This document shows, piece by piece, positions 28,900 through 64,000 of a stretch of 64,000 nt of DNA. Position 1 is the first letter of the stretch; each line of letters opens with the position of its first letter. The position numbers and the translations under genes were made by a program. The notes below the pieces were generated by a model, which made no database searches, had not been told where the DNA came from, and worked only from the letters and a program-made list of their open reading frames with translations. The stretch is taken from positions 18,044,398 through 18,108,397 of the forward strand of contig NC_092577.1 of NCBI RefSeq assembly GCF_037975245.1, given 5' to 3'. The DNA is from Apostichopus japonicus (Eukaryota; Echinodermata; Holothuroidea; Aspidochirotida; Stichopodidae).

Positions 28900-29439
28900 G
28901 TGAGTATATCAAGTTGTGCTATGATTGTAACTCAAGTTCTCTCAAAAGTATATAATTTACTCTGAGTGAGAAATTTAATTCAGATGTAAAAAAATAAACA
29001 AATCAAATTTATTAAATTGTTATTTCTCACATAATCTTATTCCATAAGTTATTGTATCTTAAACAAAGGAATATAATTACTGAAATATCTTTTCATGGGC
29101 TCTGTGCCACAAACACTTCCTTGACGATAGGTCTGATGAAATGGATTAGTAGGCATAGTACAAATGCATAATGTTTGTGTTGCTTTGATTTATGATGATA
29201 TAAGTAAAGTGCTTTTTACGTGACCCGTCATACGGGATACAAAACGTCACGGCCAAACGGCACTACCAAACCATCCCATTCTTACAAACGAACCTCAGGT
29301 CAAGCGAGCCAAAAAAAAAAAAAAAGTACATACGCTCACCGACCTGCAGAGACAAAACGCCCAACCCCCCACTGAAATATTAAAAAACTACAAAAGGACG
29401 ACCAGCACGCAGCGAAACAAAACACCCTTCCCCAGCACA

Positions 29440-32400: not shown

Positions 32401-32773
32401 TAAAAAAATCTCGTCTAGCAGAAGGCCGATTGGGAGCATACACATTGCAAATGGCGATGTTACCCTGTGGATACTTGAATAGAATGCAAACCAATCGGCC
32501 CTCGTGATCCGTCTCCACCCTAGTGGCACAACCCGCCTGACGAGCTGACAGAAGGATGACAGTGCCACAGGATGAAGACGAACCAAACGAAGCATGCAGC
32601 TCACCACCCCACTCATAAGCCCATAGAGGGACATCTTCTTCCAAAATATGTGTTTCTTGCAGGCAAACGCAGTCGACCTCCATTGATTTACAATATTGGA
32701 AAATGCGACTGCGCTTGCGATGATCCCTCATGCCATTCACGTTCAAAGTGGCAACTGAAAGTGTATGGGCCAT
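29440..32773 (-). pseudogene. LINE-A ORF2 (APE endonuclease-reverse transcriptase), one frameshift
   Basis: About 1110 codons from the ATG at 32773 (MAHTLSVATLNVNGMRDHRK). Endonuclease motifs are LNVNG, LQETHILE, VGDFNCVPDSG and LSDHDTV (first ~230 residues). The reverse transcriptase has LLPKSGDPLDPRNKRPITLL, LVSLDQQKAFDMVDRGFL, RQGCPLSPLLYVLFSE and YADDVTC, then a C-terminal CPRTGCDSLESTAHVFWHC cluster. The protein nicks target DNA and copies the RNA in place. A run of seven C (six in copy 1 and in the copy at 61090) near 30866 shifts the frame just before RQGCPLSP. That is the only break I see; a sequencing or assembly error is possible. Confidence 0.9.
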
Positions 32774-32793
32774 GAGAGGGCAGTGGTGCAAAA

Positions 32794-33885
32794 CTACGAA
32801 GACGACGATTCCGTAAGCTTCAAGCGCGCCCTTGACGACATATCGTCGTCCGAGTCGTCACTTGAAGCCGACCTTTTAAGAGAGGGTTCCCCCATTTCGT
32901 CGTACCAGCTCGTCCCAGTGGCACGTTTCGGCTCGCTGATCACCGATTCACCGGAGTCGCTGTCAGACAGAACCTCCGGAGAATCGATGACCACTGATTC
33001 TCCGTCAGACAAAGCCTCCGGATCTGGCGATACCGGCGGCGGACTGGGGACGGAACTGGACGAGTTGATGGGGGAAGCTGGTGGAGACTTTCTCGGTGCG
33101 GGCACGGGGTTGGGGTCTGCAACGACGGGGGAGGGTGAACCAGGTGCAGGGGAGGGTGAAATCCCACCAGATTCCCCCTCCTCTCGTGAAGTAGTAGGTG
33201 CGTCGGAACTTGACTTACCCCCACTCTTAGTCCTAGAGACATAAGAGGAGGGACAAGCTCGAAAGACATGTCCCTCCTTCCCACATAGTGAGCACACAAC
33301 CTCGTTTGGGCAAGCGGTGCTATCATGCCCAAGACGAAGGCAGCGCCCACATTTCTTGTTTGGGCAGCCCTTGGCTTCGTGCCCGGTCTCCCCACACCTG
33401 AAGCAGGTACGGGGCTGACCGGGATACCGCACGTGGGCTTTATGCCCTGCTATAAACAGGAAGGAGGGAATGTCCTGTTTCAGGTCGATCCGAACCTGTC
33501 GGTGCCCGTTCAACACCCCAGGGGCTTGTGCATAGGAGCACATTTTGGCAGCCTTGACAGCCCCGAACCGACCCAAAACCGTTACGACAAGTTCCTGCCG
33601 CACCTCTAGTCCTACGTGGATGACAGTTACCCATACGGATCGCTCGTATGGAGTAACTGTCATCCCCTCGACGTTACTCAGCAACGTGACACCTTTCTGA
33701 CGGGCCACGTCACTGGTAAAACGTAAATCGTACGTATTACGACCCTGGAGAGCTTGCAAAGCATCAACCTCTCCAGGCACAACAACACCCTTGCTCTTCA
33801 AAATACTAAAAACTTGCACCGGTGGAACAGCTTGTTCACCGGTGAACGACAACTTAACTATCCGAGAATCACGGCGCGATGCCAT
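32794..33885 (-). CDS. LINE-A ORF1 protein, intact, three CCHC knuckles
   Basis: 363 residues from the ATG at 33885 (MASRRDSRIVKLSFTGEQAV), chosen over an earlier in-frame start because MASRRD is conserved in copy 1 and, as MAARRD, in LINE-B. An N-terminal domain of about 150 residues resembles the fold seen in ZCCHC3-like ORF1 proteins. Three perfect knuckles follow: CFRCGETGHEAKGC, CGRCLRLGHDSTAC and CSLCGKEGHVFRAC. The tail is rich in Ser, Pro and Asp. In relatives this protein coats element RNA in the cytoplasm to form the RNP. The stop is 20 bases before the ORF2 ATG, in a different frame. Confidence 0.85.
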   Translation of the reverse strand: MASRRDSRIVKLSFTGEQAVPPVQVFSILKSKGVVVPGEVDALQALQGRNTYDLRFTSDVARQKGVTLLSNVEGMTVTPYERSVWVTVIHVGLEVRQELVVTVLGRFGAVKAAKMCSYAQAPGVLNGHRQVRIDLKQDIPSFLFIAGHKAHVRYPGQPRTCFRCGETGHEAKGCPNKKCGRCLRLGHDSTACPNEVVCSLCGKEGHVFRACPSSYVSRTKSGGKSSSDAPTTSREEGESGGISPSPAPGSPSPVVADPNPVPAPRKSPPASPINSSSSVPSPPPVSPDPEALSDGESVVIDSPEVLSDSDSGESVISEPKRATGTSWYDEMGEPSLKRSASSDDSDDDMSSRARLKLTESSSS

Positions 33886-34097
33886 GATACCGAAGGTGGC
33901 TAGGCCACAGGGGAGTAACACAAAACAAACAAAAGACAGGATAGTGAAACAACAAACGATATACGAACTGAGGAAAACACACGAACACAAGCTATCACAC
34001 CCGCCTGGCGGGAAGTATAGCACAGCACAGTACAATAACAGCTGTAACAGATGAAGAGCGAGAGCGAAAACACGTCCGCACTCCACGAAAGCCAACT

Positions 34098-35065
34098 GCC
34101 CTATTCATACGTTCAAGTGATGTAAACCAAAACTTCAAACCTATTTGGCACATTTGCATGTCAAACTCGACTTGCAAGAACTCTTTGACTATCAGGGATG
34201 AAATTTAGTTTGCATACTTCAGAAACTAGTGCATTGTTTGTAGTAACTCTTGAAGGTTATTCATCACATGAACACAATGAGATATGCTGGTGGTTGTCGT
34301 GAGCATTCCTGAATGAAGTCCTGAACTGCTGTTCTTTGCCCTTTTTTATTTGAAGACTATGCTTTTCTTCAGACCCAACTACTATATCCTTTTAGAGATG
34401 TAAACATCTTTTCTTAGTGATGATAAGATGTATCAGAGGTGCAAAGCACACTGAGTATCCACAATCGAATTAATGCATTCATTGATCTTGTCATCCTAGA
34501 AGCCTGCACATGTATCGAAAAGTGTATGCCCTCCATACGCTGCGTGTTAAATTGTATGTCATTGGTTTCTGTACTCTTTACACACCATATATGTTGATGT
34601 GGTGTAACTTGGCCATTGTGGTAACATGGATATCAAACTGCTGTATATTTAGTATGTCTGAGAAATTGGTGTAGCATAGATTGCTTCTGATCATGCTCTT
34701 CTATTTACTCATCCCAAGCATGAAAATGGAATGGATAATTGTAGTGAACAATTTAAAGCATTTTCTGATGGAAGATTTTGATACATTGTCCTCATAGTTC
34801 TTATTTCTCTTTCTAACCAAGTGAAACTTGTCCCCATTTGAAAGATTTCTGCTTGTACAAATCTAGTTTAAAATATTCACCAGTTTCTCACTCAAAGCAC
34901 CATTTTTTGAGCGCATCTATTAGGTGAATGATGTTATGTGTGCGAATTGGTAAAACAATCGACTTGCAGTTAGCACTTCTATTTCCGCAACATAAGCACT
35001 TTCACAAGTACATGCACAGGTGATTCCCTATTATATATTACTGAACGTACACATTGTGAACGTAG
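34098..35065. other. KDZ intron, no recognisable feature
   Basis: AT-rich intronic DNA between the LINE-A copy and the candidate micro-exon. No open frame or repeat that I recognise. Confidence 0.4.
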
Positions 35066-35090: not shown

Positions 35091-35392
35091 GTCATACATA
35101 GCTAATCACTGGTATCTGCAGATTTAGATTATATCAGTACTTGAAGATCTGCATTATTGGCCTAAATTTAGCACCCTATATTGCAAAAGCAGTCTTTTAT
35201 TAATTAATAGACATGCCATGGTATGATATGAGCTCTGTACTTTCCACAGTTATTCTAGATAAGGATCATCCTATTAAAGCCTTGAACTAACAATTAGAAT
35301 TTTCTCTCAAGTCCTAAGAGGGCACAAGAATTGAAAGGTATACTAGCAGCTTTTTCCATGGTAACACTTTTAGGTCATTTTTCCTTTTGCAG

Positions 35393-35455
35393 GTATGCAT
35401 ACCCGGCACTACTGTCATTTATGATATTGCGTGCAAATTCGAAGGACACATTAAG
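35393..35455 (+). CDS. KDZ gene exon 7 (second catalytic Asp)
   Basis: 21 codons, acceptor TTTTGCAG, donor GTGCGA, phase 0 in this reading. Encodes VCIPGTTVIYDIACKFEGHI; the YDIAC block holds the candidate second catalytic Asp. The other open frame over this exon has no KDZ-like sequence. Confidence 0.8.
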
Positions 35456-36042: not shown

Positions 36043-36120
36043 AAGAATATGCCGGAATTGGGAGGTTTTGATATGGCACTGCCTGTATTTCATGCATATG
36101 GACATAAACTTCATTGCCAG
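36043..36120 (+). CDS. KDZ gene exon 8
   Basis: 26 codons, acceptor TGTCCACAG, donor GTAAAC, phase 0 both sides. Encodes GGFDMALPVFHAYGHKLHCQ, with the FHAYGH...C block found between the second Asp and the Glu of KDZ transposases. Confidence 0.85.
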
Positions 36121-36899
36121 GTAAACACATGCACGCTTCTGACAAGTTGTCTGCTTCCTCTCATACTACATTTTTCAGAACAGGCATGCAAGTGTCGTAT
36201 GCCACCTAGTTTTATAACTGAGGTAGTTGTATGAGTATGTATGTACACATACTTTTTTTATTGGGTGTGTGTGTGTGCTTGGGTGCAGGTGAATGTGTGT
36301 GCTTTGAGTTAATTGGAGACCATTACAGTTTTCAAATTGTGCATGTGACTATGAGCCTAAAGTAGGTACCAGTATTATATTGGTTTTGGTGGATTGAAAT
36401 CACAGAATGTTGATAAGAAAAAATCTAGTGTACTAGAAGTATAAATAGAGCACATGTTTTGCATTATTCGTTAGTCCGCTGGGAGTTGGGGCATTTGCAG
36501 AAATTTGTAAATCAATTTTTGGTCTTCATTCATTTTGTTGATCTATCAACTTCAGTGCTCCCATATCACCTTGTCAGTGCATGTTAGTTATATTTTGAAA
36601 AAAAAAATCGCCTGTTGCATAACATCATTCGTAAGTGACCTCACAGGCTAGACAGCCTGTACAGTTTGCTCTGCTTAGATGCTTTTTGTACAGAGAACAT
36701 GTGTGTTGGCTTTAAAGCAATGTGTTCATTGGTTGGTAGATCAAGCACATCAGATGATGTGGCGAGTAATGACTTATTCAGTGCTGGCATGCTATATTAA
36801 GGGCCAATACACCAGACCTTTACTTGACTAATAGAGATTTGTGAATTTTGCTGTAAATGAATAATAATCAGCATTTTCCGTTGTTTTTTGGTGGTGTAG

Positions 36900-37080
36900 A
36901 TGTCGTATACCACAAGATGGAAGAAGGCATTTGGCCTAACGGACGGGGAGTGTATGGAACGTTTATGGTCATTTCTGAGAAAGTTCTCTCATATCAGCAA
37001 AGAGATGACCCAATCACACAGGATCGATCTTCTAAGCGATGCACTGTTGCATTATTCTGCATGCAAACTTGCCAACCTTA
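36900..37080 (+). CDS. KDZ gene exon 9 (catalytic Glu region)
   Basis: Acceptor GGTGTAG, donor GTGAGT, phase 0 in, phase 1 out. Encodes WKKAFGLTDGECMERLWSFL, the most diagnostic KDZ block, with the candidate catalytic Glu, then FSHISKEMTQSHRIDLLSDA. It joins exon 8 directly to give C-Q-M-S-Y. Confidence 0.85.
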
Positions 37081-38253
37081 GTGAGTTACTTTAATGAATG
37101 CGCCTTACATGATCAGTTATTGATGTTAAGGTAGTGACTACCATGTGCATATGCATCAACTATCTCAGTCAATACAGTAAGGCAACTTTCTCAAATAATA
37201 TGACAGACCATTTCTGCTAAGTAATACTGTGTGCCAAAACCAATTTTTTCAGTAATACACAATTGATGAACTTCCAAGATTATGCAATTTGAGTGATTTG
37301 CAGCACTTACAGAGAAATTGGTTTTGTAGGCTAAGTCTTGATATGTGTTACTTATTAAAATTTGTTTTGTGACATAACTAAGAAAAGCAAAGGATCACCA
37401 TATTGTGATAATTTTTGTTTCAGCCAGCACCACAAACACATTGTAGGGATACAAGTCTGTGTGGTAGTAGGCCGACATACATTATGGATACAGGCATCTC
37501 ATCTATATGCACTGGGATATGTAAGCAGAAATTTGGTAGTGTTTACATTAAGATTCACCATACTTGTATTAGGTAATTTCACAAATAAAATCAGGAGCAA
37601 AGTAGACTAAGGATTTTTTCCGTAGTGAATCAAAATCACCACAACCCTGATTACTGCACACATGCTATGATTATTCCTGCATTAGCTACAAGTTTCAGCT
37701 GATAGAGCTGAAAAGTGAACAGGTACAAGTCGAACTTTCATCACTTTTAAGTTAAGTATGCACACATTACTCAATATCAGAACCTGCCATTTGGTCACAA
37801 ATGGTGATTTATAGAGTATCTTGTTTCCAAATTTATTTAATTAATTGCCAATTTATGGGGTATTTGGGTTTATTTGCATAATGAAGCTTTTTTATCACAG
37901 AAAATTGGCAAATGTGTGATGCATGGTTAGCTGCATAGTGAAGGTTTAAGGTAAGTAATTAAAGTTCTCATTTGTAGAACCCTGTTGTGTGGACAATCCT
38001 GTGGACCATGGAAAGAAAAAGCAATGTAGTAAGTCACCTACAGATACCATCCTCTCCAACCCTCCCCTTTTAAAATGAATAGTTGCTATAACTCACCTGC
38101 TCCCCACCCCCCCCCCAAGTGCACAAAATCTAAGAAACAAAATTTTTGAAGATTCTCTCACCAGTCACCACACTTCCTTAACCCTCCCCCCTCCCCTAAC
38201 CTCCCAGTTAATTAAAATTATGACATGTTTGTTCTTTCACATTATTCATATAG

Positions 38254-47102: not shown

Positions 47103-47241
47103 GAATGCACTTACCGCTGATGAGAGTAAACTCCTTGAGGAATATTGGTGTAATGGGCTGCAGAGTTATGGGAGCAGTTCGAACAAGAAAAAGATATTGG
47201 AGTTAACAAAAGAAACTTCATTAAGTGCCAGAAGAATAAAG
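47103..47241 (+). CDS. Exon a: homeodomain-like helices
   Basis: Acceptor TTTTGTAG, phase 2 in, donor GTCAGT, phase 0 out. Encodes [20 protein letters not shown] and [16 protein letters not shown], matching the first two helices and the start of helix 3 of a homeodomain. An unseen exon must precede it. Confidence 0.75.
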
Positions 47242-50200
47242 GTCAGTTTAAAATTTATTATTTTGCTCAAATTTGAACAACATTGGGTTCATTTTCTGCC
47301 ACTGCTGATTCGTTTCCTATGAGTTTGAGAGCTCAACCAGGGCGGGCGTGATGTTAGAAAGCCCACTGAAATGGACTCTAGGGTCACCTTGATCCAGCGC
47401 AGTAGTTAAACAACATTGTTTTTATCTCAGTTGCAAGCGATCTTCTTATTCTCCACAAAAGGAGTCATAGCTAGTCTTATTTGAACCCAATTAGGCTATG
47501 CCTGTTTAATTTATACCGAGGAATGGCTGGGATCTGATCTGGACCATCTGCAGGTAGCCTGTGCCCTCCCTGTGCTATTCTGTAGAAGGCCTTATGTAGA
47601 CAGTAACAACTTCTAAAACGTTCCTCGCAACCAATGACACAAGGAACAGTCATTGCAGTCTCTAAGTTTAATCTAAAGCTAATTCAACAACTGTCAATTG
47701 GAAGCAAACTACTCAATCTCTGTAAGACATGACAGATTACTGACAGCACAATACTGAGGTAAATTTTACTGAGCATGTTGAGACATACCCAAGATATTGC
47801 ATTACAAACGGAATGTCCCCATAATGGGGGAAAAAGAAAATATACTTGTCACAGCATTTTCTGGAAAAAGAAGGCATCCAAGGAATTAAAGCAGACTCCC
47901 TGAATGAGGGCAATTATTGGGTAAAAAAAAATATTCATGTCTTCATTGTCATCTTCGTTATGATTTTCGTCGTCAACATTAATAGAATACTGTACCTAAG
48001 TATCAATCTTTCCTGAATGTTTATATTGAGTAAGAAAGCCAATTATGGCTGGTAGAGTCAGTTGTGCCATGTAATCCATAATTAATCAGAAGTCGGTGAT
48101 CAGCTGTACTGTACATCGGCTAGGGATGGTGGTGTAAATTGTGCAAACTGTTCTGTCAATTCAGAGGAATGTATGTGTTCTCAATATACTGTAGGAAACA
48201 CTCCCTGTTTAATTTCCCATAGGAGCAGTACTCTATGACTCACAGACCAGAGTGAGCAGTTCATGCTAGCCATGATACATGTCTGTCTGTTCTCTTGAGA
48301 ATTGCTGTATTGCCTGCATAAAACTATGTCACATAATTTGTGTAACGGTCCCAGTTGATCTGTGCCCATGAACAGCTTTGTTAGGGATCTACTACCCCTT
48401 GCAGAGGTTATCTTGTAAATTCCTCAAACACAAGGTCTTTAAACTGTTGATGATTCAGATCTTGTATGAAATAGCTTAAAAAGACAAACAGAATAGTGAA
48501 GAAACTACCATGATAGCATTCTCTGCTAAGGAGATATCACACTTTGAAGATTTCACAATTTCTTTGCAAATGACTGGTGTAGAAAGACTAACTGTGAGGG
48601 TGTGATGTCACATCCTCACTTCCTTAACATGTGTCAATATATTTCATTAAAGAATAATTATATCTCAAACACTTCCCTTGACACATATGGGTCAGATCCA
48701 AAACCTGTCAACCTCAGGGCTAAAATTTAGATGATCATAGTTATCAATTTTGATAGTTTTGTCCAAAAGAAGAACAATTTAAGCTTGCTTGGCCAAAAAA
48801 TTAAATTTGTATGTTTCTTTGTTAACGAGTACTGCTTAATTATATCAACAATGCACTTAAACCAGCGTTATGGACGGAAACAGCAATTTGTGCCACTGAA
48901 CTGCAAGGAATGATGGAATTCACAGGAATCTGCACCTGAATAATTGTTTATGGTACTGATCTCTCCAAAATAGTTTTTGGAAAAATTAAGTAGGGCATCC
49001 CTAATTAAGATTCTAATCGAGAAGAAAATCATTAATTCCGTCCGTAACGCTACCTGATGTCATTAATCTCCTGGCAAGTTTAAAGTTCACTTCAGTGATA
49101 AAATTTGCATGTAATCTTCTGAAGGTTATCAATGCCATTAAGGATGAAGTGAAAAATTACCAGATTCTTGCATATTGATAAGCTGGGGTTCAATGAAACA
49201 TCTGTGTTATGGATGGAATTAGGAAAACGTTATGGACGGAATGTGAATGTTATGGATGGAAATTACTTTCTTTGGAAAAACTATGCAGAATGTTTTCATT
49301 AAGTTAAATCAAAGACATCAAATGTGAATGAATGGTATTTTGGATGGAAAACCTTTTTTTACATGTACATTACAGTATTTTTCTACGCTTTCAGGTGATG
49401 TTTTCCCTAATTTAAAAAAAAAAAAATTAATTTCGGTAAAAATCACAAACTTTGAGGATTTTTTATTTCAAATAAGGCAAAACACCCTCCTGAAATTTTT
49501 TGTACAAACAGGGTGGTACTATATCTCTTCCAGAAAAAATTATCCGATTTTTTCAACATTACGCATTTTGAGTTATTGGCCGTCAAAGACGACCTCTTTT
49601 GTACATCGGAGCAGCTTAACAACTTCTTAAATTATTATTCAGAACAGCAAGAACCCTGAAATTTGTTTAGGGGTAAGAACTTTATACTTATAGTTTAAGT
49701 ATAAAACCCTGACAGCTCTAACATGGTTACTTTGGTAAAAAATTGGCATAAAAACTCCTACCTCATGCTGAATCGCAGCATGAAATAGCAACTTTAGAGT
49801 TGCACAACTTGCAAATATATCATAGGAAAGCATTGTAATCGTTATTTTGTAATGTTTGTACCAGACATAATAACCTCTGAAAGAATCAAGTACCCTGAAG
49901 CAATGGTTTAGGAGGAATTCATCACTAAAAATAGCACATTTTTTAGTGATCCTATCTATGGGATAGACTCTATAGGCATCTGTAATAGAAAGGTGGTAGA
50001 ATGGTTAATTGCTGAGAAATGAGACCTCAAAAGTCAAGAAAATGCCATGGTGGCGACAAATTGCGGAATTTCAAAGTGTGATAAATCGGCCAATTGGAAA
50101 GCAATGCAACTGAAATTTTCAGAATATGCTTATTTCATGATGGTCCAATCATACCAAAAATTTGAGAATTTTTTGGAGAGGGTGCAGCAACAGCCATTCT

Positions 50201-53200
50201 TGATTTGACACGGAATGACCCTTATAAATCCAAGTTGTCATCCTTATGCAACGTGGTTTTTGTGTATGAAGGAGACTGGTGGTTGGAAAAGGTGGACCAA
50301 ATATCAGTTGACAGTAATGATGTCTATGTCTCCTTCCTACACCCTAAGGGCCCTACCAATACTTTCTTCTGGCCATCACCTGAGACAAATATCCCACTAG
50401 GAATGATCATGGGGAAACTAGAACAGCCTGTCCTCCAAATTTCAAGTAGCAAAGTGGGAATTGCAACAAAGGTGGTTGAATATATTAGGGACAAGTTTCA
50501 AAGAGATTGTGAGCCGTGATGGTGACGAAAAATTTTGACAAATATGAATCGATGTATTTTGTTGAGATTGAAAAGTCTATTTCAAATTTTCATGACTGTT
50601 CAACCATACAGGCCTCCCATGTCCACAGTTTTATTTGCATGTGTTGTTTTCTTTCATACAAGCTTTGCAGACTGGTGAAACTTTGATTGCATTGGCATTG
50701 TTTGAAGGAGGTGAAGCCACAAAAGTGAAAAAAACAAATGGGAAAAGTACTGACAGCCTCTGCTTATAGTGCTGAAAGCCACCTGATGAGTACCTTCAGC
50801 AAGAGTGAAACTTTTCATGTGCTGTAGCAATTCATTTCAGGCTAATTCAATACTTTCCGTCCATAACATTCCGTCCATAACAATTCCTATTTCAGGACTA
50901 GCTCTTTCCCTTCTTATAATAAATTCAATTTTATTTCATATTATTACACATATTGGCCATAAGTATTAACTTATAACACACACTTCACAATTCAAGAGTT
51001 GATCCTAAATCAGGACAAAACCTTCCGTCCATGACGTTGTACATTCCGTCCATAACACAGAATTTTGGTTTGGGGTAGTGGGTTAATAGAGGTACATTGA
51101 AGATTATGAGTGGGAGTATGATAAAGCTAAGGTACCAGGCCTGTGATGAAAAGTACCTGATACTTTGAAATCCTGAACACTTCACAGAGTTTTGACCCAC
51201 TATGAAGGTTGGTGGAGATCGATCATTTTTCTGATTCCGTCCATAACGAACACCTAATTTGCATATTCAGACTAATATTGCACTACCCAATTAATTTTTT
51301 TCCGTTATATCAGGTACAGGTACAGGTACAGGTATCCCAACTTAGATCAATCATGCATACCTTACCAAATACTAACTCTCACACTATTTTTGATGGGATT
51401 TTATCTCTGTGAATTCCGTCCATAACATTGGCAGAGGTTTTGGATCTGACCCATATGAGATCTCCTGACGTATCTTTTGGTTGTAGGTCATAAAATCTTA
51501 CAAAATATTTTAATAAAATAACAAAGACTTTTCAGGAATGTGAGGATATGACGTCACAGCTAGTCTGATTTCAGCAGTTTCTACACAATCAGATAGAACT
51601 TGAAATTTGAATATCTCCTAAACGGAAAAACATATTTGAATAATTTCTTCACTGTTGGGTTTCTTTTATTGTCCTCTTTCATATAAGAAACATTTTTGAC
51701 ACCTGAACTATTCCTTTAATTGTGTTTGCTCTGTGGTGCTCTACATTAATTATTTGAAGCAAGTCTAGCAGCAGTGTGTCAAGTTTTTTTTCCATTAAAC
51801 CTACATCTCCCATCATTACGTTATAACGAAGTGTACAGTACTTTGACTTCAACCTTCTTTCACTTAAATTCATTGGCAACATAATGTGCTACATCAGCAT
51901 ATTCTTAGGCCAGTCTGGATTTTGTATGGATTACACTGTTTACCAAAATTTGTAACCTACACTTGCAGCAGTGATTCAATGCTTGCCACGCATGGCAATT
52001 GCCATCAGCTACCATGATGTTTATGAGCCAAATGTTGGTAAGCTGAGTTGACCAAATCTGTCTTATTAATCTGACGATTAAAAATAGTTGAGAAGGTTGA
52101 AAGACAAACATGAAGAAATGTTCCAGGAATGTTCAATATCTCTAGGCCACTACCATCACTAGATTAAATTTAGCTTCTGACTTGATCATACTTTATTGGA
52201 TTGTTTGTAATTGTTTAAATGACACTAGACACACCGTTTTTTTTTATGTATTTGTTTTTTATATATCTCATTAGAACTGGAATTACAACAAAAAAACAAA
52301 GCAGGTCAGAAGAAAATTTGGCAGCCGCAGCAAAGTACCTTCACTAAAACCCAGGAAAAAGAGTGCCTATAGCTGCTTCATGGCAGAGTATATTTCAGAA
52401 CATGGTGGGTACAGTAGATATGAAGTTCATTATATTTGAGCAGTCAAGAAAATCCAACCTTGTTTCTGATGCAAGCCACAAGTCTTTTAATTTTATTGTT
52501 AGAAGAATTGAGCAAACATCCAGCTTTACTATTGGCTTTCTTTGTGGTGGTTTTGAAGGAGGTGGCTTGAGTCACCCCCCCCCCCTTCTATCCTTCCCAC
52601 AATCACTTTCCTTGTTTAGCTGTGACAAAGATTGTTAGCATGCATGCCATGACATTTCAAAGAAAAACAAATTAGAAAAATGTGATACTAGTACTGATCA
52701 TAATGGTGGTACTAAACCCAGGTGTTTGCTCTTTCTGACTGGGGTGGGAGTCTAAAATCCAACACAGGACTCACAAAATGTGGGGTGACATGTTGGTTAC
52801 TAAAAACATAAAAAAGAGAAAGTGGTGAGCTTTTATGATTTCTTTACCATAAGTCAGCTCATACACAGCTCAACATGGCAATGTTCACCTTTATGCAACC
52901 AAGGTAAGGATATCATGTCTGTCTGACTTAAGTCTATCTGTCTGTCAGCCTGGCTCTGTGTCCAAATTTGGAAAGATTCTTCTATTCACACAGTGTCCAA
53001 TGTAACTGAATAAAATTTGATGAAGTTGGATGATTTGTATCTGTGTTGTTCATGAGCTTGTGATCAAGGTCATGTATGGCTTACGATGTGACATAGATAT
53101 GCCTGGGATATTCAAGAATTTGAATTGGAGCCTTCTTCTAGAGATTATTAACATGTGTTCATTATATTAAGTTTGCAATGCCTGATCAAGATTCATAGTG

Positions 53201-56200
53201 TTCTCTAGTCCCGATTGTGTATGAGAATTTAATTACTTGAGGCCTAATCACAAGTCGTGTACTGATTCCAGTCAGCTTGTGTTCAAAATAACGTTCTTCT
53301 ATGTAAGCATGCATGGTTTGTGGGATATGGGACATGGGTTTGTCTCCTGCACAGGTACAAATGTGTACAATAGATCTGCATGCAAGTAGTCAAGTAATAC
53401 TGTGTAATGTTGTCTGGAGTGGTCTATATATGCTACACTCCGTACATTCATTGCATGAAACAAGTTCTCTGTCTGAATTCCAAGTAATTAACCACTTTTA
53501 GGGATGCAGCTATCTGGATAAAATACTGACATTGAGCTGCCTTTTATCATAATTGCCTAAATGAGTTAATCTTCAATTTTTCTTTGTTTTGCAGCAACAT
53601 CACCTGAAAACCAGGCTACAACCCTTAACAAAGCCAATGAAGCATGGAAGAAAGTAAAAGGTACACCAGAAGTAAGCAAATACAAGGAGCAAGCAGATAA
53701 CAAAAATAGGATGGATGCCGAAGGTGCTACAATCAGGCAGGAGCATAAGAAGGTCATGGCCAGGCACATTTTGACTGAAATCAAGAAAATGGTAAAAAAC
53801 TGAAATAGCAGTAACCAAAGGCTATCATTTGTAGTGAGAGTGTTTATAAACACAATTTCATGGTATGTCAATTACATACTGCAGAAATTTCAGTGGAAGA
53901 CTGATGACTATAACAATCTGTATAATTAGAGCTGCATATTGTTTCACTCCCATCTGTAGGTATGACATTGCAGGTGTTATCATGGCTGCTAATTAAATAG
54001 TCTTTCACTTATGTTTTTACTCCAATGACTATGCCAAATAATGTTTCTCTATATTTCATTACCGATGAAAATACTCTAGTACAACATTCCCAAGTACTTG
54101 ACACTTGACATAAGAATTAAGACGCAAACTCTAACCAATTTCCCCCATATGATAGAACATGCATGGAACCGCTACGTACCTCCACATTTTTTACTATAGC
54201 AAATAAAAGTGGAAATATTAGTGTTATCATAGTGTGCTCTGTACTGAAGAACAGCAAAGTCATCTTTCAAAGTATGAAACAAAAAACAACAATCACAATC
54301 AAATTTACCACAAAAGTCATAACCAGTGAATCAGATTGACTCTGTGATGTTGCATGTTAACTCCAGTTACTGTATTCTGTCATAGAGGTCACAAGCATGT
54401 CTGCTATGATATCGTTGACTCAAATAACTAGCAATTCAATAATTTACCTCAATATTGCAATGAATTATCATTGGGGTATTGTGCTGGAAAACAAAAAGAT
54501 ATTCCATCTTGTTTTTGCACGTCTGTGTGTGTGTGCGTGTGTGAGATTGTTGAGGGTGCTTTAATGTTTGTTCCTATTACTGGGAGTAATATAATCGTTC
54601 TTCATTTCTTTCCAGTGTTTTCAACTTGAAGAATTGGACTATGAAGCAATGTTCGTTGCCATAGATACAGAGCAAAATCTCCATAGTTCAGGAACTACTG
54701 AAGGACAAAAGTTTTTAGATAAAGAGGTAGAACTCTTACGAAAATTTGGACTGAGTGTTATAGGTATGCAAAACAATTTCATTGTTGAGTTATTATTCAT
54801 TGCAGTTATTTATTAGTCAAGCGGCATAGAGACTTTAAATGCCTGGAAGTCAGATTGCTTTGACTTCATCCCAAAGTAGTAAGTAGAGCAATTACATGAA
54901 TGGGTTTTCCAGTAGAAGTCAAATCTATCAGGTGGTGTAATGCACAGTAGCACAAGTGGCGCGAGTTCCTGCTTGCAGGATCATCTAATATACATACATA
55001 TATATTTATATATATATATACATACAATTATCCCACAAAAATCAACTGCATATGAGGAAATATTTAAAGGTCATACATTCATTTTGAAGGTAGATCAAAC
55101 TTGTGATTGTTTTTTCTTTCTGTTTCATTCAATAGGGGGTAATGCTGATGGTCCTGTTAAAGAAGCAACCCGTGCAACACTACGTACCAGCGTGCAGGAG
55201 CTCTTTAACGAAAAATACTGTAAGTGAAACTGACTAAATCACATTCATCGATTGCATCTTGGGAGAGAAATATTACTATTGTCTTGTTGTCACTTATAAC
55301 TCATTAGCAATCAACAGGAATTTTTTTGATATGATAAAGTCAAATTCCATTCTTAAACTGCTGAGTGAAGTACGAACAACTGGAAAATCAGTCAATCAGT
55401 TTCCCAATTGTTGACAGCGCTACTTACATTAGCTGCCTAATATTGATTGTTCATTATTATGAGCTGCAGACATTAAAATGCAATATTGCAATTTTTCGGC
55501 TCATAGTAAAGTATTTACTACACAAACAATACTGTGGTTTCCGTTTAGTTGGAAAAGAAAGCAATTTAAAGAAATTTGATGTTAAAGTTACCAGATTCTC
55601 ACTGACCAGAAATGTGATGCGAACAAGCTAATGAACGTACAGGTCACTGTGTGTCGTCATTCTGCAGAGTGTACCCCATAGGCAAAACAATAACAATGGA
55701 CTTTCTTTTTACTTCTCTTAAGAAAGTGAGCCATTTATTAACTTCATTCTTGCAATAAACATGCAGCTACAGGAGAAAGAAATGGTTGTTAGAATTGTTC
55801 ACACATAGCTACTTAAACTGATTTTGGTTGGCAGTTCTTCAATTACAAGTAAATTATGGTTACAAACCTGCATCAACGACTGATCATATTTTGTAAGATT
55901 CGTTGTCATTATAGGCCACGTTACATAGTGTGCGGTATGATATTGAGGCCTTACCGGAATTCCGATTCTTACCTTGTGAAAATATCAACATTTCAGGTAT
56001 TTCTTAATTTTTGTTGCAATTAATCGTGTTTTGCAGTTAGTTTCGGTCAGTGGATACAGTTGAATCCAAGAAATACAAAGCTCTGCGGGGTATATGTCTC
56101 AGTCTTGCTGACATAAAGTATAATGCTTTCAGCAAGTCACAACTGCACAAAAGCAGATACACAAGCAATTGGAACACCACAGAAAAACAAAATGCCTGAT

Positions 56201-59200
56201 GGATTCCTTGTTACACATTTTAAGAGTTTGAAAAGTGAAAAATGCATGAACTTTTACCGTCTCAGGAAAATATATACATTAGGTAGTCGGTAGTCGAGCA
56301 CAATTGGCATGGATAATTTCAAATGGTATAGCAAACATGCCAAATATTCAAAGCATACTTCCAGCCAACCAATAAGGATGACTATCTCTATTAACAGAAG
56401 ACCCAAAAATGGAACTAATCAGTATCGATCTAGTATAGCCCATCATTCTTCCTAAGGTAAATAAAAAAAGCTTAACTCTTCGCTGGTTGAATAAGTCATA
56501 TTTTCTGTCATCCTCGTTGTCTATAACCCGTCCTTATAAACCTGGATTTACCTAGATATGACTAAGTGACGTGAAAATAACTGTCAGCCTGGCATATGAA
56601 AGATATTGCTTATACCACCCAAAGACTGAAATGTGACGGTAATTAAGGGTCAAAAAAATTGACGTACAAAAGGTAACAATTTTGAGTTTAGAAGTAAACA
56701 TCTAGCATAACGCCAATTCGTCCCAAGGAAACTATTCGGAACAATGTATCCTCTGTCCCAGTCATCGTTTCTGAAGTGTGCTGAACATATTTTTGCCGGC
56801 ATACGGTGGGAAACCTGGGAGCGAGAAAGTCATTGCGAGTTCTCCTTACAAAATAAATCCAAGCCTGCAGCGTTTGTCGTCGGTTTGATGACTGGGAAAC
56901 ATAAAGAAACTAAATCTTCGGTTCCAAAAAGTGTATTGGCAACATCCTACTACAAAAATCATTGGCATTTTGATACTAACAGTTTATATTTGACAGAGTG
57001 TCGTACAGGCATAGTACCGTACTGAAGTGAATAGCTGGATCGACGGTTTTCCTCACACAACTCCACACATCTACGTCAGGGTGAACTACAGTCACTTGTG
57101 CGCTTAGGAATGTTTGTGAAAATAGGAATTATTTTGTCCAAAAGTGCTAGGTTTTACTGAGTCCCACAATAACATAATGCAATTTGTGATAATGGAAGTG
57201 AAAAGATGTAACATAAATTTGAACGGATTAGAGGATGTAGAAAAACCACCACATATTCAATTTAAAGGAATTAAAATGTTTTCAACTTAAGGAAACTTGC
57301 AAAGCTTTAATGTTGGGAAGGTTTCCAGTGAATAGAACAGTTCTTGTGTGTTAATATTACACTGTTAGCTGGATTGAGGCATGAACTCGAGTTTATCATG
57401 TAAACTAGTAAACTATGTTACTAGCTATCTGATTTAAGGCACATTGCTATCCCTGCAACATTTTAAGGACACATGTTTGGTTTATATGATCATAGATGCA
57501 GGTACGGGCAGAAGAGCAATGAGCTACAAGCAGCTTGCTATGGGGAATATTGTGGTTGATGGTCTGCCACCTGGTATTACCTGCAAACGACCGTCTGCGT
57601 ATGGAGTCGATGATCTGCAAGCAATATTACGCAGCAAAAATAGTATTACCATCTGTAAGTTTGTTGTTTTATTTTTGTCTTACTAGTAAAGCACAAGGCC
57701 AACAAGTGTTACCTTTCAGTGAGCAGATATCCTTTTGCTTTCTACAGTCATTTACAGTCATCAATTGTTATAAAGCTAAGCAGGACAATTGGAACACTTA
57801 CAAACATGATATGAGAGTAGGGGAGGGGGGGGGGTGAGTGGACATAGGGGCTGGGTGTTTTTGCTGCAGAACTTCATTGAAATTGTCACATGATACATGC
57901 TGGTAGGTACACACATACCAGCTTAAAGGGAAATAATCACAATGAAATATATTCACTGAAATGGAGAAGGGAGGGGTCTGTCCATAATATAGATAGTGGT
58001 ATGTTATATTTACACCACTACATAAAAATTTTGACCTGGGTTTAGGGTACTTGCTGTTTTTTCGTCCTGTAATGGTGTTCATGACTGTACACATTTATAT
58101 TGTCCATATATTGTTGTATATACTTATAGTGTGTGTAAGTTCTCATGAGAACATATTGTAACCAATCAAATTTATTTCACTTTCATTGCTTTTCCTCACA
58201 AGGTTCTTCCAGCAATGCAACTATTACTCCAGTGGCCAATTGCTCATCAGCAAATCAACATGGTACGTACAAAACTTATATCGAACTTAAAAGTTTGCTG
58301 ATATAACATACTTTTTAAAAATATCTTTTGTTCGATTTTACAGCACAAGTCATTTAACTTCCTGTTCAAAATCTAAACCTTTTGGTTTAAGCTAGTTTAC
58401 CATTTGTTAAATTGTAGTTCTGCAGTTTTGTAGTGACCATGATCAGAATATTAATATGTCGGCAGCAGAATTGCACATATCAAAGCTTAAAACAAACACA
58501 AATATAATCAATTTTATATAATGTGCTTGCTCACTGTGTTTGTTCCCTTTCCTCTGTAATTTCTGTTTGCAGTGTCTGTGAGTGATGAGAGTCAAATGTT
58601 AGACCTGCAGGATCAAGATCAAGGCTCTAGTCATGATGAAGCTGTTCAGCCATCGTACGACCAAGAGGGTTAGTGGTTTGGCTGTCATGTTCTACTTCAT
58701 TTCTATCTTTATTGCAGTGGTTAGAACATTCTTTGCTTATGCATACAACAAGCATTGCATTTCATCATTTTTGGTTTTGATGATAATTGTAACCTTTTTA
58801 GTCGTGATGCATGCATGTGTATGTGTTGTGAAGTAAAGCTTGTAAACAGGATATCTCACAAAGAGAAGCGTGGACATATCATGTGAATGTCAGATTTAAT
58901 AAGTGACATGCAAGGTGATATATTACAGGGTATTTATTTGTATCTATTATCTCCACTTACTGGAGTGACAAAGATTTTGTAGTATCTTAGGGGAGTATTT
59001 GTCACCATGACACTCAGACAAACCCTTGTTAGTACTCAGTGTGCCAGTGAGCATTCCTATCCTAAAAAGTGACAAATGTCATGTCCAGTGCATGATGTAA
59101 TTCCCAATGTGATTGTTTCTTATTAAAACTAATGAGTCTGAGATAAACATCCATGACAGAAATGAATTACATTAAAGTCATTAACTTGTAGCTTCTGTCC

Positions 59201-59770
59201 TTCATAAATGTGAATGTTACCATTACTTCCTGTCATTACATTGTGCTGAAGTAGGAAATTGTTTATTCTTTTTATCCCTCTCATCATCTCATTTCATTGG
59301 AAGTTACGAAGATTGTAACATCCCGATGCATGAGTTTGCACTTCTAATGGAACTATGTATCATCTTCATAATCTCCATAGAACCTGCAGTCATTCTGCTG
59401 GACATATTTGAAGATGATTCTGTTGCTTTTAACAGATTTCTCAACATGCTTACATATTTTGCACATTGTGGGTTCCTGCTTCTAGGGCATAGGCCTACTA
59501 ATTTGAACATAGTTTTCAAGCTGGAGTAGCAACTTCCTGATTAATCATTCACCACTATTATTGTTAAATGATTAAGTTTTCCATGCTATTAAAAGTATTT
59601 TTTTTGTTTCAGCTGATTTCTTCCCGGTGGAGAAAGTCCTTAAGAAGAGGCAGAAGAAGGGAGAAACTCAGTATCTGGTCAAGTGGCACGGGTACTCTTC
59701 CAAATATAATCAATGGGTAGATGCAGGGAGCATCTCAAAGGAAGCCCTGGATCTGTATAAAGGCATTTAA
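47103..59770 (+). CDS. Split gene: homeodomain-like, HMG-box-like and chromodomain protein (5' end missing)
   Basis: Nine exons with agreeing phases at GT-AG junctions give at least 388 residues. Exons a-b encode a homeodomain-like segment whose third helix reads [17 protein letters not shown] across the junction, keeping the W-x-x-N signature. Exons b-c encode an HMG-box-like segment ([16 protein letters not shown], then [20 protein letters not shown]). Exons d-h are unrecognised, with a block [20 protein letters not shown]. Exon i is a chromodomain ending the protein. All three domains bind DNA or histone tails, so a nuclear chromatin-binding role is likely. No frameshift or stop is seen. 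Upstream coding sequence is required because exon a starts mid-codon. It lies 5.8 kb downstream of the KDZ gene on the same strand. Confidence 0.8.
48439..51719. mobile_element. TTAA-flanked DNA transposon remnant (Kolobok-like) with long inverted ends
   Basis: TTAA lies at both edges (48439-48442 and 51716-51719). The edges are inverted relative to each other over about 270 bases, decayed outside but with a perfect 23-base block at 48684-48706 and 51435-51457. The right end on the minus strand begins TTAAAGGAATAGTTCAGGTG, a form I associate with TTAA-targeting Kolobok-type elements. Inside, TTCCGTCCATAAC and close variants occur about twelve times, mostly pointing inward-out in mirror fashion on the two sides. 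It lies in the intron between exons a and b of the chromodomain gene. Confidence 0.65.
50205..50519 (+). pseudogene. Transposon-encoded protein fragment with an SH3-like C-terminal segment
   Basis: 104-codon frame inside the TTAA element. It reads [20 protein letters not shown], then [19 protein letters not shown], a pattern I recognise from the C-terminal parts of uncharacterised animal transposon-derived proteins. It has no catalytic motif and no upstream partner, so the element appears to have lost its transposase. Confidence 0.5.
51720..52274. other. Intron of the chromodomain gene, nothing recognised
   Basis: AT-rich DNA between the TTAA element and exon b. Confidence 0.4.
52275..52404 (+). 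CDS. Exon b: end of homeodomain-like helix and start of HMG box
   Basis: Acceptor CTCATTAG, phase 0 in, donor GTGGGT, phase 1 out. Begins [20 protein letters not shown], which completes helix 3, then a basic linker [20 protein letters not shown]. Another open frame over this stretch has no such pattern. Confidence 0.75.
53595..53791 (+). CDS. Exon c: rest of HMG-box-like domain
   Basis: Acceptor TTTTGCAG, phase 1 in, donor GTAAAA, phase 0 out. Encodes [20 protein letters not shown] followed by [12 protein letters not shown], fitting helices 2 and 3 of an HMG box, then a charged helix [16 protein letters not shown]. Confidence 0.8.
54616..54763 (+). CDS. Exon d, unrecognised
   Basis: Acceptor TTTCCAG, phase 0 in, donor GTATGC, phase 1 out. 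Encodes [20 protein letters not shown] and [18 protein letters not shown]. No domain recognised. Confidence 0.75.
54950..55025. repeat. Hairpin plus TA-rich microsatellite
   Basis: GAGTTCCTGCTTGCAGGATC with a TCCTGC/GCAGGA stem is followed by an (ATAC/TATA)n run. It is the inverted counterpart of 41965-42000, where CCTCCTGCAAGCAGGAAC follows a (TATG)n run. Probably two ends or copies of one repeat family. Confidence 0.55.
55136..55219 (+). CDS. Exon e, unrecognised
   Basis: Acceptor TTCAATAG, phase 1 in and out, donor GTAAGT. Encodes [20 protein letters not shown] and ELFNEKY, a likely helix. Confidence 0.75.
55220..57501. other. Intron e-f of the chromodomain gene
   Basis: Contains a 93-codon frame at 56744-57025 from ATG with no recognised motif and no spliced partner. 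Otherwise AT-rich and unrecognised. Confidence 0.35.
57502..57654 (+). CDS. Exon f, GLPPGI-KRPSAYG block
   Basis: Acceptor TAGATGCAG, phase 1 in and out, donor GTAAGT. Encodes [20 protein letters not shown], then [20 protein letters not shown]. The block looks conserved in kind and I have the impression of similar blocks in uncharacterised invertebrate proteins, without a name. Confidence 0.75.
58203..58262 (+). CDS. Exon g, Ser/Asn-rich linker
   Basis: Acceptor CTCACAAG, phase 1 in and out, donor GTACGT. Encodes [19 protein letters not shown], low complexity. Confidence 0.6.
58573..58668 (+). CDS. Exon h, acidic linker
   Basis: Acceptor TTTGCAG, phase 1 in and out, donor GTTAGT. Encodes [20 protein letters not shown] and [10 protein letters not shown], an acidic flexible linker before the chromodomain. 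Confidence 0.65.
59613..59770 (+). CDS. Exon i: C-terminal chromodomain and stop
   Basis: Acceptor TTTTTGTTTCAG, phase 1 in, stop TAA at 59768-59770. Encodes [31 protein letters not shown] and [12 protein letters not shown]. The aromatic, V-E-K, W-x-G-Y and W positions match the chromodomain that reads methylated histone tails. The domain is at the very C-terminus. Confidence 0.85.
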
Positions 59771-60530: not shown

Positions 60531-61089
60531 GTGCTTTTTACGTGACCCGCCATGCGGGATACAAAACGTCACGGCCAAACGGCACTACCGAACCATCCCA
60601 TTCTGACAAACGAAACTAAGGTCTAGCGAGCCAAAAAAACATGCGCCCGCCGACCTGCAGAGACAAAACGCCCAACCCCCCCCCCCCCCCACTGAAACAT
60701 TCAAAAACGTACAGAAGGACGACCCGCACGCAGCGAAACGAAAAACCCCTCCCCAGCGTCCAAAAAAGGCAGCCCCAGATAAACGGCGAAAATCGCCTTC
60801 AATCTGAAGGCGAATGTCGGACTTCACCGACTCCAGGACTGCCTGCCAACTGGCAAATTTCCCCCTAAAAACCAAATTACACCTATTCCGCCAAACATGT
60901 TTTTTTACAATAGAGCAAACAAAAATAATGCGGTGCAACACAGCTACCGAACAAACTGGAGGGTCTACCCCATATAAAATAAAGCCCTGCCCTACCGACC
61001 ATGAACGGTCTCCCGTAACACGGTCGGTCCAGGTCTGGAACCACTCCCATAAGTTTACTACAAAGTAACAATGCCAAAAAACATGAGCG
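60531..61089 (-). mobile_element. LINE-A 3' part, itself split by another LINE-A
   Basis: Begins GTGCTTTTTACGTGACCC with the CCCGCCATGCGGG stem and runs into ORF2 C-terminal codons (MEWFQ-like region, WEWFQTWTDRVTGDRS). It stops at the word ACATGAGCG. Copy 1 continues with GTACTCTC at that place, so this copy was interrupted here by the next one. Confidence 0.85.
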
Positions 61090-64000
61090 GTGCTTTTTAC
61101 GTGACCCGCCATGCGGGATACAAAACGTCACGGCCAAACGGCACTACCGAACCATCCCATTCTGACAAACGAAACTAAGGTCTAGCGAGCCAAAAAAACA
61201 TACGCCCGCCGACCTGCAGAGACAAAACGCCCAACCCCCTCCCCACTCAAACATTCAAAAACGTACAGAAGGACGACCCGCACGCAGCGAAACGAAAAAC
61301 CCCTCCCCAGCACACCAGCGTCCAAAAAAGGCAGCCCCAGATAAACGGCGAAAATCGCCTTCAATCTGAAGGCGAATGTCAGACTTCACCGCCTCCAGGA
61401 CTGCCTGCCAACTGGCAAATTTCCCCCTAAAAACCAAATTACATCTATTCCGCCAAACATGTTTTTTTACAATAGAGCAAACAAAAATGATGCGGTGCAA
61501 CACAGCTACCGAACAAACTGGAGGGTCTACCCCATATAAAATAAAGCCCTGCCCTACCGACCATGAACGGTCTCCCGTAACACGGTCGGTCCAGGTCTGG
61601 AACCACTCCCATAAGTTGACTACAAAGTAACAATGCCAAAAAACATGAGCAGTACTCTCTAAGCTGTCACAGCCGGTCCTAGGGCACAGTCCATCACCCA
61701 ATCGCCAATGATATCTTTTTAGGTTGGTCACCAAGGCACCGTGTGCAACTCTCCATGCAAGATCACGGAGCCTGCAACCATTCAGCCTTGAATGCACCGA
61801 ACGCCATACTTCTGCAGAATGACGTCCCTGGACAAAAGTTGCATTCAAGGCCTTATCCCTCAACGAACTGTGAACGAGGGCCGGCTGTGACAGGTCAACA
61901 GGGGGCAACTCAATCAGAGCGGAGCAGATGACACGCACCACCCTGTTTGGAGTACTACTATGCGGTTCTCTGTTGCTAAACAGCGCCGGGACCCATCGAC
62001 GCAGGTGCAAACCGCCCCAAAAACGTACAAAATATGAAGAAGGCAACCCTGGGTCAGTTACGCTACAAACAACTGCTTAAATAACAAAAAGGTCAATTTA
62101 CTTCCCAGATGAACCACCCCTAGTCCCCCCTTCTCCAGTTTTTGGTACAATACCGCCCTCTTGACAAGCTCTGTACCCCCAGACCATATGAATGAAAAAA
62201 TCGCCCTCTCCAACCGTACCAGGACGCGACGCGGAATAGGGTACACCGCGCCCGGGTACCACAAGATGGGCGAAACGAAACGATTAATAACGGTGACTTT
62301 CCCCAAGATCGAAAGCCAGCGGGTGCCAAAGGTTTCGAGTCTGCTCTGAAATACCTCAGCCCTCTCGTTCCAGGTGACATCACAAGGTGCATCGTAGCCG
62401 AACCATATACCATTAATTTTGATATTCTGATCCGACCACAACGCACCGAATGGTAAGTCTCTGTATCTCCAGCTACCAAGACGAAGGCCCTTTGTCTTTT
62501 CTGGATTCAACTTCGCCCCGGTAGCTCTCTCAAAAATAGATAGATCCTGCGAGAGTGCGCGAAAGGAGACCAGACTCGAAACAATACATGTCACGTCATC
62601 TGCATATTGAGCGCATTTCACTTTGGCACCCCCTGGCACAACGAATGGAACAAGTTTGGAGTCCCTTTCCAAAGACGAGAGAGGGACTCGCTAAACAAAA
62701 CATAAAGTAATGGAGACAGAGGGCACCCCTGGCGCACCCCCCTCTCTACGTTAAAAACCTCCGAACAAAACCCATTTACGATAACAGAACTGAAACTTTG
62801 TTCATACAAAACAGAAATCCATTTACGAAAATTTGGGTGCAACTGAAACGTCTCCAATACATTCATTAAAAAACCGCGATCCACCATTGCAAAGGCCTTC
62901 TGCTGGTCCAGAGACACCAATGCACATGGCAGATCACGCTCAATAACAAAGTCGGTCAAGTCGCGCATCAACCACAAGTTCTGCTGGATGCAATGACCCT
63001 TCACTGCACAAGTCTGGAGATCACCAACAAGATGCGGCATAGCCAGTGCAAGGCGGTTGCACAAAGCCTTAGCCAGCAACTTGTAGTCCACATTTAGCAA
63101 GGTGATCGGACGCTTGTTATGGGGATCCAAGGGGTCCCCAGACTTTGGCAGCAAAGTAATCATGCCCAGACGTTGACTTTGGTTTAACAGTCCGTTTTGG
63201 AAGGCGTCCTCGAAGACGGCTCTGATGTCGGGTCCTATTGTTGCCCAGAAGGTTCGGTAGAACTCCCTCGGAAGCCCGTCCGAACCCGGGGACTTGCCAT
63301 TCTTCATCTTCGAAAGCGCCTTCCAAAGCTCAACAGTGGTTATTCCGCCCCCCAAAATATCATTGACATCGTGGGGAACGGTTTTTGAGATTCCCCTCAA
63401 TAAATCAGACTGTGCCGACAAGTCGACATTGCCACGCGTAAACAAACTCGAATAATACTCTTTATATACGCGGACAATGCCGTGAGGGTCACTGACCACG
63501 GTCCCATCGGTAGCGCGCACAGACGGGACGCGTCTGTCACCCGCCGATGAGCTAACGGACTGGTAAAACCTCAGTGAAGGGCGCTCCTCGGCTTCCACCG
63601 CTTCGACACGGGCCCTGACGCGGGCACCGTGGTACTTTTCATCGAGATACGTCTGCAAAGCGATGACTGCCGAAGGGTCGCCAAACTTCACCTCCGCGCA
63701 CAGCTTCGAGAATTTTTCTCTTCGACGCCGTGCGCGGGTCACGCAATACTGAATTGCGTAGCGTTTGATGCGCAACTTGATATTATCCCACCACTGAGAT
63801 GTAGAAGCAAAGGCCGGCTTCAATGTTTGCCATCCTTTGTACCTGGTCTCGAAACCTTGGCGGAATTCTGCCTCGCCAAGAATCCGACAGTTAAGCTTTC
63901 ATAGGCCCCGCCCGATCGGGAAAATGGAAGGCAAAACAAAACGTGCTACCACAGTGTCATGGTCAGAGAGCGGACAGCTGAGCGTCTCGCAACCCGAAAA
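61090..64000 (-). mobile_element. LINE-A copy at the right edge, runs off the window
   Basis: Starts at the tail GTGCTTTTTACG at 61090 and covers ORF2 from its C-terminus back to the end of the endonuclease domain at 64000. ORF2 frames are 61255-62046, 62058-62672 and 62618-63900. Breaks are a lost C near 62061, a lost A near 62672, and a Trp codon changed to TGA at 63899-63901. The reverse transcriptase blocks RQGCPLSPLLYVLFSE and YADDVTC are present, and AFAMVDRG replaces AFDMVDRG, which changes one conserved Asp. The tail stem is the CCCGC/GCGGG type. Confidence 0.9.

Follow-up and report, generated by a model that had tools for sequence, protein, structure and literature searches.

A GTF2I-repeat gene almost certainly carried by a giant DNA transposon, of Kyakuja-like KDZ type, in the holothurian Apostichopus japonicus

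Giant transposons of the KDZ superfamily are described at 30.3 kb in Ectocarpus and 31.7 kb in Chlamydomonas (PMC12477816, in excerpt), and fungal elements of the Kyakuja branch carry TET/JBP cargo, for which the removal of silencing marks has been speculated (PMC12730594, in excerpt). TFII-I is described as vertebrate-specific (PMC10721858, in excerpt) and the I-repeats as unique to the TFII-I family, GTF2IRD1 carrying five of them (PMC3493543, in excerpt). Here we describe a gene at 47103-59770 of a 64,000-nucleotide stretch of the Apostichopus japonicus genome (the window; NC_092577.1, positions 18,044,398 to 18,108,397 of the forward strand; coordinates without a contig label refer to it). 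The predicted protein is composed, in order, of an HDX-like homeodomain, an HMG box, a small conserved domain, a GTF2I repeat and a chromodomain. With these domains, the gene almost certainly rides in a DNA transposon of about 45 kb and is not an ordinary host gene, and the element is, to judge by its sequence, a Kyakuja-like member of the KDZ superfamily. The analysis covers this one genome, with gene models taken from DNA sequence, and in the genome searches a missing match does not amount to absence. The mitochondrial sequence also points to an echinoderm: contig C35 begins with cox1, frames that by eye are nad4L and cox2 come next on the same strand, and the first 100 cox1 residues read as expected under genetic code table 9, with AAA at a position where N is expected; this code and gene order are those of echinoderms. 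MHC class I, as a sign of a vertebrate, gave no match, but neither did any control, so this negative carries no weight. We refer to the giant transposon family holding this gene as family A, and to other KDZ families with homologous genes as families B to E.

The cargo gene lies on the plus strand, and its nine exons join into a single open frame of 389 codons followed by a TAA ending at 59770, with AG..GT at all internal borders, in keeping with the consistent phases and open frames claimed in the original prediction. Exon 1 (47103-47241) encodes the first part of the homeodomain, and exon 2 (52275-52404) the end of homeodomain helix 3, a linker and the start of the HMG box. The intron separating them is 5,033 bp long in the window copy, and the join across it yields NWNYN (W-x-x-N) in helix 3, at the point where the homeodomain had been predicted to be completed. 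The remainder of the HMG box and a basic tail are in exon 3 (53595-53791), and the small conserved domain, perhaps resembling the TFII-I region ahead of repeat 1, is in exon 4 (54616-54763). The GTF2I repeat starts in exon 5 (55136-55219; LFNEKY) and ends in exon 6 (57496-57654). Exons 7 (58203-58262) and 8 (58573-58668) encode a linker and an acidic linker, and exon 9 (59613-59770) the chromodomain and the stop codon. Because family D has the homeodomain, HMG, exon-4 and GTF2I exons in the same order, broken at matching points, and the last three kinds recur in further families, the joins up to exon 6 are more than a chance arrangement; we regard the predicted nine-exon gene as confirmed, with the joins beyond exon 6 supported by splice phase. 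A comparison of families A and D upstream of exon 1 revealed no 5′ exon.

The best Pfam match of the window protein is to the GTF2I repeat (PF02946; exons 5 and 6, residues 220–285; 43.4 bits, cut-off 27), followed by the chromodomain (PF00385; residues 343–386; 42.6 bits, cut-off 25.1). Against solved structures, the former matches repeats of GTF2IRD1 and TFII-I (best E-value 2.8e-7, GTF2IRD1 repeat 2dzr) and the latter many chromodomains (best 3e-7, CBX4). The homeodomain scores 17.0 bits, under its cut-off of 22.9, and the family D protein alone has no Pfam homeodomain match. A two-family (A and D) profile matches PDB 2da4 at 1.1e-5, sharing L..YW.NGMTS.GS and helix 3 with it, the next matches being mostly homeodomains at 0.0019 and weaker. 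The 2da4 entry, listed as hypothetical protein DKFZp686K21156, we take to be HDX; its likeness to the cargo protein is confined to the homeodomain. What is presumably homeodomain position 51 is kept as N in family A and is S in family D.

Pfam does not list the HMG box for the window protein alone, nor for families B and E. The C6 gene described below has an HMG_box_2 match (26.7 bits, cut-off 22.4), and family C falls just below that cut-off at 21.3. A five-sequence profile of the HMG exon, one from each of five families, matches UBF, TFAM and HMGB1 at 1e-7 to 1e-5. The box is like theirs by profile and differs in that a phase-1 intron interrupts it and a basic tail and a GTF2I repeat come after it. 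Similarly, the chromodomain resembles those of CBX, Polycomb and HP1 proteins (3e-7 and weaker), but as a predicted domain at the C-terminus of a transposon protein. The domain profile checks suggested with the original prediction thus bore out its split homeodomain and HMG box, the latter completed across the second intron, and its chromodomain stands as well; the GTF2I repeat between the HMG box and the chromodomain had been overlooked.

The copy-number check suggested at the same time exposed the transposon. The HMG exon matches 15 places in the genome, 14 of them full-length at 89–100% and one partial; four places, including the window's own, are at 100% identity. The chromodomain exon likewise has 15 matches. 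The gene is repeated in the genome because it is carried by a giant KDZ transposon, whose copy in the window begins at 18967, runs on the plus strand past 64000 and ends at C17:18122435, with a terminal inverted repeat (TIR) and a target site duplication at both ends. It measures 59.07 kb in all and carries insertions (the part at C17:18108398-18115000 is unread). A second copy, at C14:17023431-17068674, measures 45.2 kb and is collinear with 18968-60532 of the window at 95–99% identity, barring insertions and deletions.

The left TIR of the window copy (18967..19103, plus strand) is immediately preceded by the 7-bp duplication CTATTTT (18960..18966), and the same seven bases stand outside the right end, beyond the window. 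The TIRs are about 137 bp long; of the 138 printed end columns, the first of which is flank, 132 are identical. Each contains three copies of the near-palindrome CAGTAACTACTG, in the left one at 18989, 19023 and 19075; within the 64-kb window, and within 74 kb around the C14 copy, this sequence is confined to the TIRs. Perfect 7-bp duplications flank all three giant copies read at both ends: CTATTTT in the window, TTTATGT in C14a and CTCTGTT in C14b. The element ends are CACCC..GGGTG in both C14 copies, and the left terminal C is a T in the window copy. For these three copies we rejected segmental duplication: their inverted repeats are the same and their 7-bp duplications different.

All nine cargo exons are present in the C14 copy with the expected splice ends, nine substitutions in 1171 bases, no gap and no stop in 389 codons. 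Three partly fetched copies hold seven (C22), four (C5, one of them incomplete) and eight (C12) of the nine, with gaps, single-base or larger, in some exons; the GT after exon 7 is absent from the C12 copy. With the left TIR as query, a genome search produced 1101 first-look candidates; 40 of these were scored, and 42 matches were listed. Because of the number of candidates, small TIR derivatives are probably common. Short TIR-bounded stretches resembling non-autonomous derivatives lie at C9:27115956-27116336, C22:22664584-22665185 and C12:4022512-4022830, and in the C22 and C12 ones the flanking bases agree at six of seven positions (by eye).

The transposase is recognized by the KDZ domain (PF18758, cut-off 26.6 bits), which exceeds the cut-off in the genome search for the window copy (34.2 and 30.8 bits) and for C14 (38.7 bits); three single C14 frames, at 21.0, 16.9 and 18.0 bits, are each under it. 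All parts in the window are on the plus strand. A frame with a Cys/His cluster (21987..22616) is the probable N-terminal part; we take the cluster to resemble CxC2, for which Pfam gave no match. Downstream are a KDZ exon (27993..28139; DANFGLVRK), the C14 version of which matches PF18758 at E 0.0003 and 21.0 bits, alone below the cut-off; a stretch at 28760..28909 (30.8 bits, the search reading through one TGA and one TAG); and a stretch at 35331..35455. Because this last stretch lies in two different frames, the window transposase is frameshifted. A further stretch (36052..36123; PVFHAYGH) follows, and the core (36900..37088; GLTDGE..ERLWS; 34.2 bits) is 65% identical to that of family D and 55% to that of family B. 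Two C-terminal frames (40464-40610 and 40978-41328) are common to family D.

The label 'Kyakuja-like' rests on the length of the duplication and on the ends: as in Kyakuja, the duplication is 7 bp and the ends are CA..TG, except for the left terminal base of the window copy (PMC12730594, in excerpt). The element also resembles cargo-bearing Kyakuja and other KDZ elements in its KDZ transposase, its large size and its accessory gene. At 45.2 kb it is larger than the KDZ elements whose sizes are given in the available part of PMC12477816. The cargo differs: the fungal elements carry TET/JBP (PMC12730594, in excerpt), whereas here TET/JBP was not found and the gene encodes a protein of DNA- and chromatin-binding type with a GTF2I repeat.

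Homologous cargo genes occur in other KDZ families. A genome search for the GTF2I repeat listed 32 matches, 30 of them over the cut-off, and one for the KDZ domain listed 48. Fifteen of the 32 were placed in family A by adjacency to matches of the HMG and chromodomain exons. Within 40 kb of a listed KDZ exon, a zone comprising 0.38% of the genome, lie 22 of the 32 listed GTF2I matches (12 of 15 in family A and 10 of 17 others), a proximity with a binomial probability of 1e-20 if loci are treated as independent, which they are not. The ten outside family A fall into families B (four), C (two), D (three) and E (one), so that four families is a fair count; one locus was read per family, and the remaining loci were assigned by score, spacing and strand.

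In families B, C, D and E, and in the C6 gene, the HMG exon, exon 4 and the two GTF2I exons follow in the same order, and the GTF2I repeat exceeds the Pfam cut-off in B (51.0 bits), C (41.8), D (45.2) and E (39.3). Intron phases are shared as well. Scripted reading of C, D, E and the C6 gene places the HMG intron in phase 1 and the exon 3|4 intron in phase 0, and reading by eye gives the same phases for A and B (the script missed family B's first two exon borders). For the exon 4|5 intron, the script finds phase 1 in B, C, D and E, matching A as read by eye; at C6 it chose a wrong donor, which leaves that border unsettled. The exon 5|6 intron is likewise a phase-1 intron, according to the script in B, C, D, E and C6 and according to the eye in A. 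The conserved core of the cargo, present in at least four other KDZ families, comprises the HMG box, the small domain and a single GTF2I repeat.

Family D is closest in layout to family A, with homeodomain, HMG, exon-4 and GTF2I exons in the same order (tblastn identities of 34–69% per piece) and the gene downstream of the transposase on the same strand. The homeodomain, 42% identical between A and D, has no match in the stretches read of B, C, E and C6, the upstream parts of which are short. A chromodomain downstream of the GTF2I repeat on the gene's strand was found only in A among the families read. On the opposite strand in the neighbourhood of the family C cargo gene (C17:16304001-16320000 region) is a Chromo-like frame, FFPTNMV.. 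(tblastn E 0.047, no Pfam match). Because the cargo gene lies on the strand opposite the transposase in B, C and E, its exons are unlikely to be a 3′ extension of the transposase.

The C6 gene (C6:16337001-16347000) has HMG, exon-4-like and GTF2I frames and one DNA match in the genome; it is perhaps a domesticated copy or a lone relic. Without a listed KDZ exon within 40 kb are the GTF2I loci C12:10844117, C16:43415286, C7:18734904, C7:18843512, C8:17951245, C6:16338873 and C17:18571785, of which C7:18734904 belongs to a copy of family D and C8:17951245 resembles family E.

The cargo protein resembles the TFII-I family (GTF2I, GTF2IRD1, GTF2IRD2) in its GTF2I repeat: a profile of exons 4–6 matches ten solved repeats of these three proteins at 3.5e-15 to 8.4e-8. 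It is set apart by having one repeat in every gene model read, that of the window protein included, where the TFII-I family has several; by lying inside an echinoderm transposon, with an HMG box in front, where TFII-I family members are vertebrate host genes; and by the homeodomain and chromodomain of the family A protein. Many non-mammalian GTF2IRD2 annotations are hAT transposases (PMC10641963, in excerpt); here, by contrast, the I-repeat itself is present. Among the papers listed by searches of open-licence literature, none connects GTF2I repeats and KDZ elements in its title or displayed abstract; database entries without a name may exist.

Exon 4 is perhaps akin to the TFII-I region before repeat 1. 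Shuffled sequences reach its score against that region of human TFII-I in 5 of 5000 cases with five sequences and in 3 of 10,000 with six, compared with 1006 of 10,000 for a reversed-sequence control. Of the human sequence used, residues 102–193 equal PDB 2d9b exactly and the stretch compared is unverified, for which reason the likeness is a lead.

Several insertions and neighbouring features accompany the giant copies. Two LINE-like insertions (long interspersed nuclear element; named by eye) are on the minus strand: one at 29208..34110, with reverse-transcriptase-like frames, is absent from the C14 copy, and the other, at 60539..64000, hides the right part of the element and extends past the window. 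Within the latter, 60539-61130 appears by eye to contain two LINE-like 3′ ends in succession, the same approximately 550 bp recurring from about 61088. Frames resembling the tail of a Gypsy polyprotein (by eye; no Pfam match) lie on the minus strand at 60352-60537 and in the C14 copy at 17059955-17060572. About 2.8 kb of cargo intron 1 (48663-51446), absent from the C14 copy, holds recurring GTTATGGACGGAA and TTCCGTCCATAAC in both orientations (by eye) and is perhaps another mobile element. Near the right end of the C14 copy, a 141-codon frame with Cys/His fingers (C14:17066346-17066768, minus strand), with weak FOXP-CC and ROS_MUCR Pfam matches below cut-off, is perhaps a second cargo gene. 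Outside the element, 3047-3983 holds a repeated frame with near-full matches on C19, C18 and C8, each at 95%, besides a match on C17 that is split.

To judge from its domain types, the cargo protein probably binds nuclear DNA and chromatin, and its most likely role would be that of a helper of transposition, with counter-silencing next. An architectural helper is plausible because the ends of the element are so far apart. The protein would bind and bend DNA at the long TIRs with their three CAGTAACTACTG sites each, the HMG box bending and the homeodomain or I-repeat sitting on the element ends. With the transposase, it would bring together ends separated by 45 kb, and the chromodomain would anchor it on modified chromatin, either at silenced copies or at target sites. 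This job, proposed from domain types, is by itself tentative, somewhat short of an even chance; the joint reading of a Kyakuja-like KDZ cargo gene with a helper role appears to us evenly poised, its weight lying mostly on the structural part.

Several observations weigh against this joint reading. Fungal Kyakuja are described as lacking TIRs, unlike the giant element with its TIRs of about 137 bp, and the statement in section 3.2.1 of PMC12730594 (in excerpt) is a description, perhaps not a definition. No convincing TIR pair was found for family B in 48 kb or family D in 30 kb, and 7 of the 17 GTF2I loci outside family A have no listed KDZ exon within 40 kb; near the C6 gene (10 kb) and C8:17951245 (9 kb), none was found at the spot predicted from other families. 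The exons past the GTF2I repeat, including the chromodomain, are known only in family A, splice phase being the sole basis of their joins. Purifying selection among family A copies seems weak and their divergence looks like near-neutral drift: nonsynonymous-to-synonymous ratios (pN/pS) in four copies are 0.91, 0.56, 0.48 and 0.39, exon-to-non-exon divergence ratios are 0.70, 1.12, 0.83 and 1.05, and the C22 and C5 copies have one stop each.

Such drift is what would be seen if the cargo gene were a useless passenger, carried and decaying. Post-insertion drift is, however, expected of any transposon gene, and families 55–65% alike in the transposase core have homologous genes that share one exon order and one set of intron phases, which makes a passenger improbable. 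More improbable still is an unusual host regulator combining a homeodomain, an HMG box and a chromodomain. Its domains and joins hold, and the domain order matches no standard host protein known to us, as the original prediction had said; but an HMG exon with 15 genome matches, inside a unit with TIRs, target duplications and a transposase, speaks for transposon cargo, and we rejected a host gene on copy number and element ends. The cargo could instead act against silencing or in regulation, opening or protecting the chromatin of the element and controlling its transcription, as proposed for fungal KDZ TET/JBP. The presence of a chromodomain together with DNA-binding domains suits this role, as does the speculated removal of silencing marks by fungal Kyakuja TET/JBP cargo (PMC12730594, in excerpt). 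We nevertheless consider it unlikely, if less so than a passenger, for no enzyme domain was found in the cargo protein and the core in all families read is an HMG box with a GTF2I repeat, the chromodomain being present in one only.

The origin of the gene can be read in either direction. The TFII-I family may descend from this cargo, because TFII-I is called vertebrate-specific and its repeats family-unique (PMC10721858 and PMC3493543, in excerpt), yet the repeat is found here. On this reading, an early vertebrate would have domesticated a KDZ cargo gene encoding the HMG box, the small domain and one I-repeat, and the repeat would then have multiplied; in echinoderms the gene would still reside on giant, recently active-looking transposons that keep adding DNA- and chromatin-binding domains; we regard this as a real possibility, held tentatively. 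With much the same reserve, we consider that an ancient host gene of deuterostomes, encoding the HMG box, the small domain and one GTF2I repeat, may have been taken once by a KDZ element, TFII-I deriving from the host gene and the C6 gene perhaps being its heir. The C6 locus, with its HMG, exon-4 and GTF2I frames, its one DNA match and no KDZ exon in 10 kb, fits such a capture. Those 10 kb, however, take in no more than the place where other families lead one to expect a KDZ exon, and a solitary element in decay would leave the same picture; the C6 exon-4 splice donor is unsettled and the comparison is unrooted.

GTF2I and related genes have drawn study for their involvement in Williams-Beuren syndrome, and the available passages of the TFII-I literature offer no explanation for the origin of the repeat. 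For annotators, the locus is a warning that predicted transcription factors of this kind can be transposon genes. It presents an animal transposon family whose cargo protein combines several domains of DNA- and chromatin-binding type, gained in different families. In this echinoderm, the GTF2I repeat is found commonly in the cargo of giant transposons, in a fixed order of partner domains and with shared introns, so that the origin of TFII-I can be tested through phylogeny and by comparing introns.

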